Positions 56,516 to 59,968 of a stretch of DNA of 64,000 nucleotides are shown piece by piece (within the stretch, counting starts at the first letter, position 1; every line of letters starts with the position of its first letter). The stretch comes from Candidatus Colenecus caballi (lineage in GTDB: Bacteria > Bacteroidota > Bacteroidia > Bacteroidales > Bacteroidaceae). The stretch spans positions 1 to 64,000 of the forward strand of contig JAGHSY010000068.1 in the NCBI GenBank assembly GCA_018065615.1, written 5' to 3'. Below the pieces are notes generated by a model that worked only from the letters and a program-made list of their open reading frames with translations, was not told the DNA's origin and ran no database searches. The position numbers and the translations under genes were made by a program.

Positions 56516-57975
56516 TACATCTCAAAATCATACACAGAATATTGGGAGTCCTGCTTCTCATTGAGGCCGGCATACTTCTGCTGTGCTCGTTCTTCCCTGT
56601 CTTCTACCATGAGGATGACCTGTTCGGATTCATCATGACCTCAGCCATAACGGCCTGCTGCGGCATTACATTCATGCTCATTGGCAAGAGCACCAGACAC
56701 AAGGAGGACTCCATGACACGACGTGACGGCTACATTGTCGTGGCAATAAGCTGGGTCATATTCTCCATATTCGGGTCGATGCCGTATTTCGTGAGCGGAT
56801 ACATACCTTCATTCACCGATGCCTATTTCGAGACTATGTCCGGTTTCACCACGACAGGAGCCACCATCATGACCGATATAGAGGTCATGCCGCACGGACT
56901 GCTGTTCTGGCGCAGTCTGACACAGTGGATTGGCGGTCTGGGCATAGTCTTCTTCACCGTGGCCGTTCTGCCTATCTTCGGCGTAGGTGAAGTCCAGCTT
57001 TTCGCGGCCGAGGCCACCGGCCCCACCCACGGCAAGCTGCACCCGCGCATAAGCGTCAGCGGCCGATGGATTCTGACCGTCTATCTTCTCATTACTGTAT
57101 GCTGCGCTGTCGCACTGAGACTTTGCGGCATGGGCATATTCGACAGTGTGAACCATGCGCTCTGCACAGCAGCAACCGGAGGCTTCTCGACAAAGAACGC
57201 AAGCATTGCATTCTTCCAGTCACACAGCATTGAATATGTGATCACGTTCTTCATGTTCCTGTCAGGCGTCAATTACGGACTGCTGTTCTTTGTCGCGTTC
57301 CGCGGCAAGATACGCAAGCTGGCTGAAGACACTGAATTCAAATGGTATCTGGGCATTGTACTGGCTTTCACACTTGCAGTCGGAATCAGCCTTTTCATAG
57401 CCACACCGTATGATGCCGCAGCATCATTCAGGAATGCACTGTTCCATGTTGTCGCAATAGTCACCACGACCGGATTCACTACAACGGACTACACGCTGTG
57501 GCCTCCGTTCATCTGGATGCTGCTGGGTCTGTGCATGTACCTTGGCGCCAGCGCAGGTTCCACATCGGGCGGCATGAAATCAATCCGCATTGCCATCCTG
57601 TTCAAGTCCATGCGCAACGAATTCAACCGCATACTTCACCCCAACGCCGTGCTTCCAGTACGCATAAGCGGCAAGGTCATACCACAATCCACAAAGCAGA
57701 GCGTGCTGACGTTCAGCGTGTTCTTCCTTGCGCTGGTGTTCTTAGGCTGGTTCTTCTACATGGCCATAGGAATTGATCTGGCCGATGCATACGGACTGTC
57801 ACTGTCCTGCCTGAGCAACATCGGACTGACCATAGGAGATCACGGATGCAACATTCCGTGGAATGACATGCCCTCCATTGGCAAGTGGTTCTCAACCCTG
57901 CTCATGCTTGTCGGACGACTTGAGGTCTTCAGTGTCCTGCTGCTCCTGACCCCCTCGTTCTGGAAGCACAGATAA
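56512..57975 (+). CDS. trkH: Trk system K+ uptake transporter TrkH
   Basis: Inner-membrane K+ channel-like subunit of 487 residues with about ten to twelve helices and four pore loops; selectivity-filter-like patterns appear at TMSGFTTTGATI, TAATGGFST, VTTTGFTTTD and LSNIGLTIGD. The start is a TTG at 56512 overlapping the trkA stop (TTGA). The translation [19 protein letters not shown] matches the expected TrkH N-terminus, and no in-frame ATG exists for about 40 codons. Its last 84 bp overlap the convergent DUF4435 gene. Confidence 0.93.
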   Translation: MIHLKIIHRILGVLLLIEAGILLLCSFFPVFYHEDDLFGFIMTSAITACCGITFMLIGKSTRHKEDSMTRRDGYIVVAISWVIFSIFGSMPYFVSGYIPSFTDAYFETMSGFTTTGATIMTDIEVMPHGLLFWRSLTQWIGGLGIVFFTVAVLPIFGVGEVQLFAAEATGPTHGKLHPRISVSGRWILTVYLLITVCCAVALRLCGMGIFDSVNHALCTAATGGFSTKNASIAFFQSHSIEYVITFFMFLSGVNYGLLFFVAFRGKIRKLAEDTEFKWYLGIVLAFTLAVGISLFIATPYDAAASFRNALFHVVAIVTTTGFTTTDYTLWPPFIWMLLGLCMYLGASAGSTSGGMKSIRIAILFKSMRNEFNRILHPNAVLPVRISGKVIPQSTKQSVLTFSVFFLALVFLGWFFYMAIGIDLADAYGLSLSCLSNIGLTIGDHGCNIPWNDMPSIGKWFSTLLMLVGRLEVFSVLLLLTPSFWKHR

Positions 57976-58956
57976 CAGGTTCCGCATCTGCTCACGCATT
58001 TTCTCATACAGGCCGCAGTCGCGGTAATGCGTGTTCTTTCGCAGTGCTTCCTCGACCGTCATCTGGCTGTGCTGATATGCGCTTATCTCATTCTGATACT
58101 GACGGTCATGCATGGCATAGCGGCGAATTTCCGCTTCACGCTCCTGACGCAACTGCGTGCATATGGGGTTCAGCAGCTTCATTATGACATTCTCAATAAG
58201 GTGGTGCCCCTGCAGGAACAGATAGGTCCTGCTCTCATTGACACCCATGAATGTCAGTTCCTTGCTAAGCTCTTCAACCTGAGGCACAGCACTCTCATAA
58301 TTGGCCGCCAGCCATCGGACTTTTCTGTCAACCTTGTCCTTCAGGCCGATGAGCGCACCCAGCGGCTTCTGCGGATCGACGCTCTTAAGGCGTATCTCCA
58401 TATTCAGGTCCTGCATGCTGAATTCGTTGTGCTTCTTGTTGCGGTAGAACCACACGTTCCAGACAAACAGCGGATACACCACCTTTGAATACATTTCCAT
58501 GAATTCACGGTAGTCAATGAAACGGCGGTCATTCAGTGTGCACTGCACGCATATCTGATGCAGGCTTCCGGCCCAACACTGGTAGTTCTCAATTGCGTAC
58601 GCGTATGTCTGTATGACAAACGGGTTCTCATTGATTTCCTTCGATGTGTATGTAGTTCCCTGGAGCAGCCAGTCATAGTCACTGTCAACGCAGGCTATCA
58701 TGTATTTTCCTAGCTGATGGTTCTCCATGCATGAGCGCAGGGCCGATTTCTTTCCCTTGGTCAGACCGTCATGGTTTGGCAGCATGATCTGGAAATAGTA
58801 TTCATCGTTCTCAAACTCATCAAGCAGCAGGCGCCAGAACGACACGTCATCATAGCTTTCAACAAACGCAATTATGCGGCCGCGACGCTTGCCCGGAAGC
58901 AGCCGGTTGGCCGCCTCCATGTACTTTGACGTTACGTTGTCAATGAGTTTCTTCAT
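57892..58956 (-). CDS. DUF4435 protein with TOPRIM-like motifs (AriB-like)
   Basis: 354-residue soluble protein. A TOPRIM-like acidic site is visible: the Glu in IAFVESYDDVSFW (about 31-43) and the Asp-x-Asp in ACVDSDYDW (about 90). A central region with helices and a Glu/Gln/Asp-rich, probably disordered, tail (last about 25 residues) follow. DUF4435 proteins are the effector nuclease (AriB) of the PARIS anti-phage system. Its ATG overlaps the upstream ATPase stop (ATGA). It converges on trkH with an 84-bp overlap, so the tail is encoded antisense to the TrkH C-terminus. Confidence 0.8.
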   Translation of the reverse strand: MKKLIDNVTSKYMEAANRLLPGKRRGRIIAFVESYDDVSFWRLLLDEFENDEYYFQIMLPNHDGLTKGKKSALRSCMENHQLGKYMIACVDSDYDWLLQGTTYTSKEINENPFVIQTYAYAIENYQCWAGSLHQICVQCTLNDRRFIDYREFMEMYSKVVYPLFVWNVWFYRNKKHNEFSMQDLNMEIRLKSVDPQKPLGALIGLKDKVDRKVRWLAANYESAVPQVEELSKELTFMGVNESRTYLFLQGHHLIENVIMKLLNPICTQLRQEREAEIRRYAMHDRQYQNEISAYQHSQMTVEEALRKNTHYRDCGLYEKMREQMRNLLSVLPERGGQEQQDTEDLKSSDKHEQG

Positions 58957-59777
58957 TTCACAGTAATGTCATCGACATCGGACACATTGTCCATCCAACC
59001 GTCCATGATAAGGGCCGGAGAATGCGTTGTCATGATAATCTGAACATTCGGATTGAGTGAGCGCACGCGTGAAATGAGCTGCTGCTGCCACTCGATGTGA
59101 AGTGAAATTTCCGGTTCGTCCATAAGCAGGACACATGGTGCCGAATCCTGGACAAGTGTGGTCAGCATAACCACCAGGAGCTGTTTTTCGCCCGATGACA
59201 GGCTGTAAGGAAGCAGCTTGTTGCCGAACTGGTCAAACTGTATTTCATTGCTGGAACGGTCAATCTTCTTGCCCGTATCAATGAAAAGTTCATCCATGTA
59301 GTCCATGAAACGGATCTTTGGAGCGGACAGCTGCTGGGCCTGGGCAAGCTTTGCAGGGTCACCTGATGTCAGCAGCTGTATAGTCTTGTTGCCTATGTTG
59401 ACCTGATAGTCCAGATATCGGCGCTGAAGCTTGTACAGCTGCCAGTCCAGTTCGGACACCACATTGGGGTCTGACATCTTTTCCAGCAGATTGCTGTGAA
59501 TGAGCGGACGGTCAATGCTGCGGATCACGTCATAGCGCAGTTTTGTGGCACCCTTTGGAGCGTATTCAATGGACACTTCCGGGGTCTCATCGGCACCGGC
59601 TTCACCGGCCATATAGTCCAGACGTGCCACAGTCTTGTTCAGAATGGTGCTCTTGCCTGTTCCGTTCACACCGCTGAGAATGTTCACATCGGGCCTGAGT
59701 TCCCAAACAATATGCTTCCTGCCCCACAGGGAATTGATTTCAATGCGGCTTATTCCGCTTGCATAACCGTTGTCCAT
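58953..59777 (-). CDS. AAA/ABC-type ATPase paired with DUF4435 (AriA-like)
   Basis: 274-residue ATPase with the full ABC-like set: Walker A SGVNGTGKSTI, signature YSLSSGEKQLL, Walker B VLLMDEPEISLH and the switch His in TTHSPALI. The insert between the Walker A and signature parts is short, so the protein is much smaller than the 400-500 residues I recall for PARIS AriA, and no long coiled coil is evident. It overlaps the DUF4435 gene by 4 bp. A terminator-ended RNA locus lies immediately upstream. It may be defence, DNA repair or RNA quality control. Confidence 0.82.
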   Translation of the reverse strand: MDNGYASGISRIEINSLWGRKHIVWELRPDVNILSGVNGTGKSTILNKTVARLDYMAGEAGADETPEVSIEYAPKGATKLRYDVIRSIDRPLIHSNLLEKMSDPNVVSELDWQLYKLQRRYLDYQVNIGNKTIQLLTSGDPAKLAQAQQLSAPKIRFMDYMDELFIDTGKKIDRSSNEIQFDQFGNKLLPYSLSSGEKQLLVVMLTTLVQDSAPCVLLMDEPEISLHIEWQQQLISRVRSLNPNVQIIMTTHSPALIMDGWMDNVSDVDDITVK

Positions 59778-59812
59778 ACGTTCCAGTTTTGTTCTTTCTT
59801 GTAAAGGTATAT

Positions 59813-59845
59813 AAAAAAAAGAAGAGTTACCGTAGCATCTCTTCT
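59813..59845 (-). terminator. intrinsic terminator upstream of the ATPase gene
   Basis: On the minus strand AGAAGAG (59845-59839), 12-nt loop, CTCTTCT (59826-59820), then a run of T (59819-59813). It ends 36 bp before the ATPase start codon, so it would stop or attenuate transcripts from the upstream box. Confidence 0.8.
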
Positions 59846-59955
59846 CTTTATTTTGGCACCGCGTGATTCACATCAAACGAAACCCAATGATATTTATAAA
59901 AAGGACTATCTAATCCAGAGCAAAACGTTGAATGGGAACCCCCACTTCCGTTTCG
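59813..59955 (-). ncRNA. candidate small RNA or attenuated leader
   Basis: A -7 box TATCTTTG (minus, 59961-59968) precedes about 143 nt that end at the terminator 59813-59845. No ORF of note lies inside. Near the 5' end a hairpin can form: AACGGAA(G)TGGG, loop GGTT, CCCATTC, then CGTT. Known families such as 6S RNA or a riboswitch are not recognised. The 59778-60055 gap is otherwise empty. Confidence 0.5.
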
Positions 59956-59960
59956 CGCTA

Positions 59961-59968
59961 CAAAGATA
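59961..59968 (-). promoter_or_regulatory. -7 box of the candidate RNA/ATPase operon
   Basis: Minus strand TATCTTTG. No -33 TTTG at standard spacing is visible. Confidence 0.5.

Follow-up and report, generated by a model that had tools for sequence, protein, structure and literature searches.

A Candidate Trans-Acting Small RNA with a Conserved Putative Seed and Predicted Sites in Surface-Lipoprotein Operons of a Rumen Genus of Bacteroidaceae

Introduction

Targets are known for few small RNAs (sRNAs) of Bacteroidota, and our literature searches turned up no sRNA with known targets for rumen Bacteroidaceae. Two sRNAs of Bacteroides thetaiotaomicron provide the closest comparisons. FopS is an sRNA with a canonical sigma-ABfr promoter, an unpaired conserved seed, and a terminator; it targets surface operons at the 5' regions of SusC mRNAs, works with and is bound by RbpB, and is said to have been deposited in Rfam (PMC11697453). 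GibS is a conserved stand-alone sRNA that is largely unstructured and pairs through short seeds with mRNA leaders; it has two seeds, both of which act in translation initiation regions (PMC7366714).

Here, we analyzed a window of 64,000 nucleotides from Candidatus Colenecus caballi, in which positions 59960-59813 (minus strand) appear to encode a stand-alone trans-acting sRNA for surface-lipoprotein operons, a reading to which we assign a probability of roughly three in four. The RNA resembles FopS in its TAnnTTTG-type promoter, conserved putative seed that is predicted to be mostly unpaired, terminator, and predicted surface-operon targets. FopS is about 65-70 nt long, has 14 paralogues, and carries its seed at the 5' end, whereas the RNA described here is about 145 nt long and single-copy, with the putative seed between two hairpins; FopS targets the 5' regions of SusC, whereas the sites predicted here lie in an Mfa-like fimbrillin leader and at a SusD/GH43 junction. 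With GibS, compared by description, the RNA shares conservation, a stand-alone gene, and predicted short-seed pairing with mRNA leaders, but it lacks the mostly unstructured form and the two seeds at translation initiation regions.

The locus also adjoins a gene pair in the arrangement of PARIS, namely an AriA-type ATPase next to an AriB (DUF4435) protein. To our knowledge, no such RNA has been described as a part of PARIS. The likeness of the pair to that system lies in matches of both proteins to AriA and AriB profiles; unlike PARIS as a mobile defence system, the pair is core to the genus. AriB cleaves tRNA, according to the abstract of PMC12409363.

Results and Discussion

Anatomy of the RNA locus

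The original prediction had placed a promoter box, a 5' hairpin, and a terminator before the ATPase gene. All of these were found, on the minus strand, with 35 bp between the terminator end and the ATPase ATG (59777) and no gene between them. The features of the locus are as follows.

59813-59960, minus strand: small RNA gene of about 145 nt with an approximate 5' end, delimited by the 21-species alignment and a covariance-model match at 59813-59960 (131.8 bits, the window's own sequence being one row of the model)
59961-59968, minus strand: TATCTTTG, the small RNA's -7 promoter box of Bacteroidetes type (TAnnTTTG), assigned by sequence
59920-59958, minus strand: 5' hairpin (helices 1 and 2), with shape kept and sequence varying; both-side changes in 11 of 13 pairs
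59882-59910, minus strand: near-invariant linker and putative seed GATAGTCCTTTTTATAAATATCATTGGGT, almost letter-identical in 21 species
59885-59901, minus strand: putative seed core complementary to the candidate target sites; its complement recurs in trans
59855-59885, minus strand: second hairpin, capped by a GUGA loop (GNRA-type) and almost unchanged across species; 100% of cells paired
59813-59849, minus strand: intrinsic terminator consisting of a stem-loop and a T run; 16 pairs, 92% of cells paired

Along the minus strand, the elements run from the TATCTTTG box through the 5' hairpin, the AU-rich linker, and the GNRA-capped hairpin to the terminator. The TAnnTTTG consensus (PMC7366714) was present in 21/21 RNA-bearing species at a position matching that of TATCTTTG. 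The predicted fold energy of the 154-nt strand was -49.8 kcal/mol compared with -32.8 ± 3.8 kcal/mol for shuffled sequences (z = -4.45; none of 200 shuffles as good). A simple pattern-based terminator scan gave no call at 59813-59849; across the 21 species, the terminator arms and T run were nearly invariant and the tip co-varied. A tRNA scan found nothing at the RNA locus. In predicted folds, the U/A-rich part of the linker had a mean unpaired probability of 0.51-0.91. A GAUA/UAUC pairing is also possible and would leave the linker looped out; in some species, the linker was predicted to be partly paired in this way.

Conservation, covariation, and distribution of the RNA

BLAST searches found the RNA in 21 of the 37 genomes of the genus. 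In the RNA-bearing loci that were read, it was flanked by the genes for an M20 peptidase and the ATPase, and the matching named records were mostly rumen and ruminant-gut metagenome-assembled genomes (MAGs) of Bacteroidaceae and Bacteroidales. In the 21-species alignment, changes on both sides that kept pairing occurred at 14 of 39 pairs compared with 6.6 in shuffles (0/500 as high), and standard pairs filled 91% of pair cells compared with 42-58% when the partners were slid. The conservation of the hairpins in close relatives, on which the original prediction depended, was borne out in these 21 species, with compensatory changes in the 5' hairpin, which carried 11 of the 14 double-change pairs, and at three tip pairs of the terminator. 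The GUGA-loop hairpin had no covariation support of its own because it is almost invariant (9 of 10 pairs). The linker at 59882-59910, whose conservation had been overlooked in the prediction, was among the most constrained parts of the RNA and more conserved than the 5' hairpin. Conservation and structure of the locus exceed chance.

The chance that the locus is merely a small-protein gene or a non-functional spacer is negligible. Some frames are open for 30-40 codons in a few species, but no frame was open across the 21 species, several of which had no ORF of at least 8 codons, and the compensatory changes and near-invariant linker speak against a spacer. By sequence, the promoter box, the intrinsic terminator, and the lack of a conserved ORF give the anatomy of an sRNA. 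With promoter box, covarying structure, and terminator conserved in 21 species, the small RNA that had been proposed is upheld, and an sRNA gene with its own promoter and terminator is very likely real.

The covariance model recovered the clade members at 132-168 bits (these being the sequences that built the model), while scores outside the clade in 399 family genomes reached at most 46 bits; this best outsider was an ordinary terminator when read and was ruled out as a homologue, and the model found no homologue outside the genus in these genomes. Rfam 15 at the gathering threshold contained no family matching the RNA; permissive thresholds yielded chance matches only, with a mir-6 match falling on the terminator. 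Exact matches to a 20-mer of the seed in GTDB genomes came from rumen and ruminant Bacteroidales MAGs, apart from single matches in one Flavobacteriales MAG and in Aquimarina, which are probably due to chance. On the AriA tree, the presence of the RNA requires two changes, corresponding roughly to one origin with a possible loss. The RNA very probably represents an sRNA family of a known kind, without an Rfam match and limited to one genus as far as searched.

Relationship to the AriA/AriB-like gene pair

Downstream of the RNA, the following features were recognized.

59802-59809, minus strand: TACCTTTA, probably the ATPase gene's own -7 box, a TAnnTTTA box kept across species
58953-59777, minus strand: AriA-like ABC ATPase gene (PADLOC AriA 9.1e-55), a neighbour outside the proposed function of the RNA
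57892-58956, minus strand: AriB-like DUF4435 gene, a neighbour (Pfam DUF4435 1.5e-46; PADLOC AriB 1.2e-56)

The original prediction had also offered a leader that holds the operon off: transcription would start at TATCTTTG, and a regulated terminator would gate the ATPase and DUF4435 genes. The shared strand, the short distance to the ATG with no intervening gene, and a position kept in 21 species are compatible with this explanation. However, a TAnnTTTA box occurred 21-31 nt 5' of the AriA start, directly after the terminator, in 21/21 RNA-bearing species, and several RNA-less relatives had a similar box before AriA (TACTTTTA, TATTTTTA, TACATTTG, and TACTTTTG). In three RNA-less species, the M20 gene nearly ran into AriA and no box was seen. 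AriA and AriB were also kept in RNA-less relatives that have no such leader, and no conserved antiterminator fold was found in the RNA, the linker being conserved instead. We therefore regard a regulated leader as improbable.

A second proposal made the RNA a trigger, antidote, or regulator of the pair, and it extends to an RNA that acts as antidote, trigger sensor, or guide in a defence or toxin-antitoxin unit. Such a unit would fit the adjacency of RNA and pair in 21/21 RNA-bearing species and the matches of the proteins to PADLOC AriA and AriB, but distribution argues against it. AriA was present in 36 of the 37 genus genomes and the RNA in 21, and the M20-AriA order persisted without the RNA in six genomes (G204, G207, G211, G214, G216, and G189), in some of them with a spacing of <40 nt. 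Moreover, the trigger of PARIS as described is a protein. The putative seed matches host surface-lipoprotein mRNAs at other loci, and viral contigs gave no exact match to its 20-mer. No RNA component of PARIS is named in the abstract of PMC12409363. A role of the RNA within the pair is thus very unlikely.

The RNA and the AriA/AriB-like pair are instead most likely neighbours with separate promoters, since AriA is commoner than the RNA, the gene order is kept without the RNA, and AriA has a box of its own; the link between them appears to be mostly positional.

The pair itself (57892-59777) is core to the genus, with AriB adjoining AriA in the genomes read. Such core presence is unusual for a mobile defence system, and the pair may have a housekeeping role.

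Recurrence of the seed complement in trans

Short trans matches of the RNA found by BLAST concentrated on the linker and occurred in RNA-bearing genomes. With at most one mismatch, the 17-mer CAATGATATTTATAAAA had 15 trans sites in 13 of the 21 RNA-bearing genomes (eight having none) and no trans site in the 16 RNA-less genomes, counts that are not independent among these related species, with co-occurrence and conservation partly reflecting shared descent and most of the strict sites representing one orthologous leader (Mfa-like). The reversed control of the same 17-mer had a single match in total across all 37 genomes. An equally conserved 17-mer of the neighbouring hairpin (GTGATTCACATCAAACG) gave one trans match, so the sites found in trans are not duplicated RNA genes. 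The 5' half of the linker (ATTTATAAAAAGGACTA) recurred more weakly, with five trans sites in RNA-bearing genomes, one in RNA-less genomes, and three in controls.

Untranslated or gene-junction sequence accounted for 14 of the 15 strict sites, on the strand of the flanking mRNA, and most sites lay 40-136 nt 5' of a start codon or after a stop codon, off the ribosome site. Several of the looser seed-like sites may be chance matches. We discounted matches within aldehyde-dehydrogenase genes (L053 and L191) and in further coding frames as probably due to chance.

The recurrent motif might alternatively be a binding site for a DNA- or RNA-binding protein or a dispersed repeat, whose complement the RNA simply happens to carry. 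Copies do occur in varied places, including 3' UTRs by terminators and three in tandem in one leader. Yet the sites match the linker and not the rest of the RNA, nearly every strict site is on the mRNA strand, RNA-less genomes lack the motif, and the RNA surrounding the linker shows covariation, which makes a protein site or repeat an unlikely explanation. Conserved, predicted to be mostly accessible, and with complementary sites in mRNAs from unlinked loci, the linker resembles a seed for base pairing.

Proposed function of the RNA

In the mechanism that we propose, the sRNA would be transcribed from its own TAnnTTTG promoter and end at its own terminator, presenting a largely single-stranded 29-nt linker flanked by the 5' hairpin and the GNRA-capped hairpin. 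The partners of the linker would be surface-lipoprotein operon mRNAs that carry a complementary site (core CCAATGATATTTATAAAA). The proposed sites lie in the Mfa-like fimbrillin leader, at the SusD/GH43 junction, in the leader preceding a 146-aa protein gene, and at some start codons and 3' UTRs. Pairing would most likely lower translation or stability of the downstream cistron. RbpB is an RRM protein, and the window's own genome encodes an RRM_1 protein; a protein of this type may assist the pairing.

The candidate regulon appears unusually clear. The RNA is directly testable, having a covarying structure, a putative seed of 29 nt, and candidate sites across many species. Control of surface glycan-uptake operons by sRNAs is known from B. 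thetaiotaomicron; the proposed function would widen it to include fimbrillin operons as well as a rumen genus represented mainly by metagenomes.

Candidate target sites

The main site lay in the leader of a fimbrillin-like (Mfa_like_1) lipoprotein gene in 12 genomes, comprising ten strict sites, a site in G161 interrupted by a contig end, and a 15-nt match in the window's own genome. Among 11 aligned leaders, which were partly picked for carrying the site, the seed site was the most conserved 17-nt window (0.96), and the duplexes predicted between these leaders and the RNA had energies of -27 to -32 kcal/mol, with z-scores of -5.0 to -7.9 against shuffled seeds. A further site, at the SusD_RagB/GH43 junction, overlapped the SusD stop codon in six genomes. 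In genome G218, three tandem seed-complementary sites (L041 1995-2099; G218:C47 13594-13698) were located 25 nt before the 146-aa ORF, whose product had no Pfam match. Other sites overlapped start codons, including that of a glutathione peroxidase gene. A multicopy gene for a small secreted protein also carried seed-like sites in its 3' UTR in eight RNA-bearing genomes, and none there in the RNA-less genomes read.

The placement of these sites invites a more speculative interpretation, which we consider possible but rather doubtful: a lineage-specific sRNA, whose gene would have originated between two genes on the chromosome of a single rumen genus, may have gathered a surface-lipoprotein regulon. 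Its sites within operons, which fall between fimbrillin cistrons, at the SusD/GH43 junction, and downstream of stop codons, would then tune the ratio of cistrons rather than switch the whole operon.

Several additional features of the target loci were observed. The Mfa-like leaders in L048, L051, L052, L056, L057, L146, L154, and L174 contained a second conserved element 5' of the seed site, TAACTCTTTTCTTTAAATAGGCC-stem-GGTCACAAAG-AGAGCGTGAGCGC, which is a hairpin that keeps its shape while its sequence varies. Contig C53 of the window's own genome carried a 21-nt seed match 214 nt 5' of a radical-SAM gene (L014 3595-3615, G000:C53); a TATATTTG box precedes the match, which spans the beginning of a 20-codon ORF (MIFIMNNTAFIDRLISWLIG) that could be a leader peptide. 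The small secreted protein (KTIIAAVAALFIGFGANAQSVNEN...) in L194-L220 was multicopy and often located at contig ends, and its copies carried differing types of 3' UTR; this multicopy gene seems to break assemblies.
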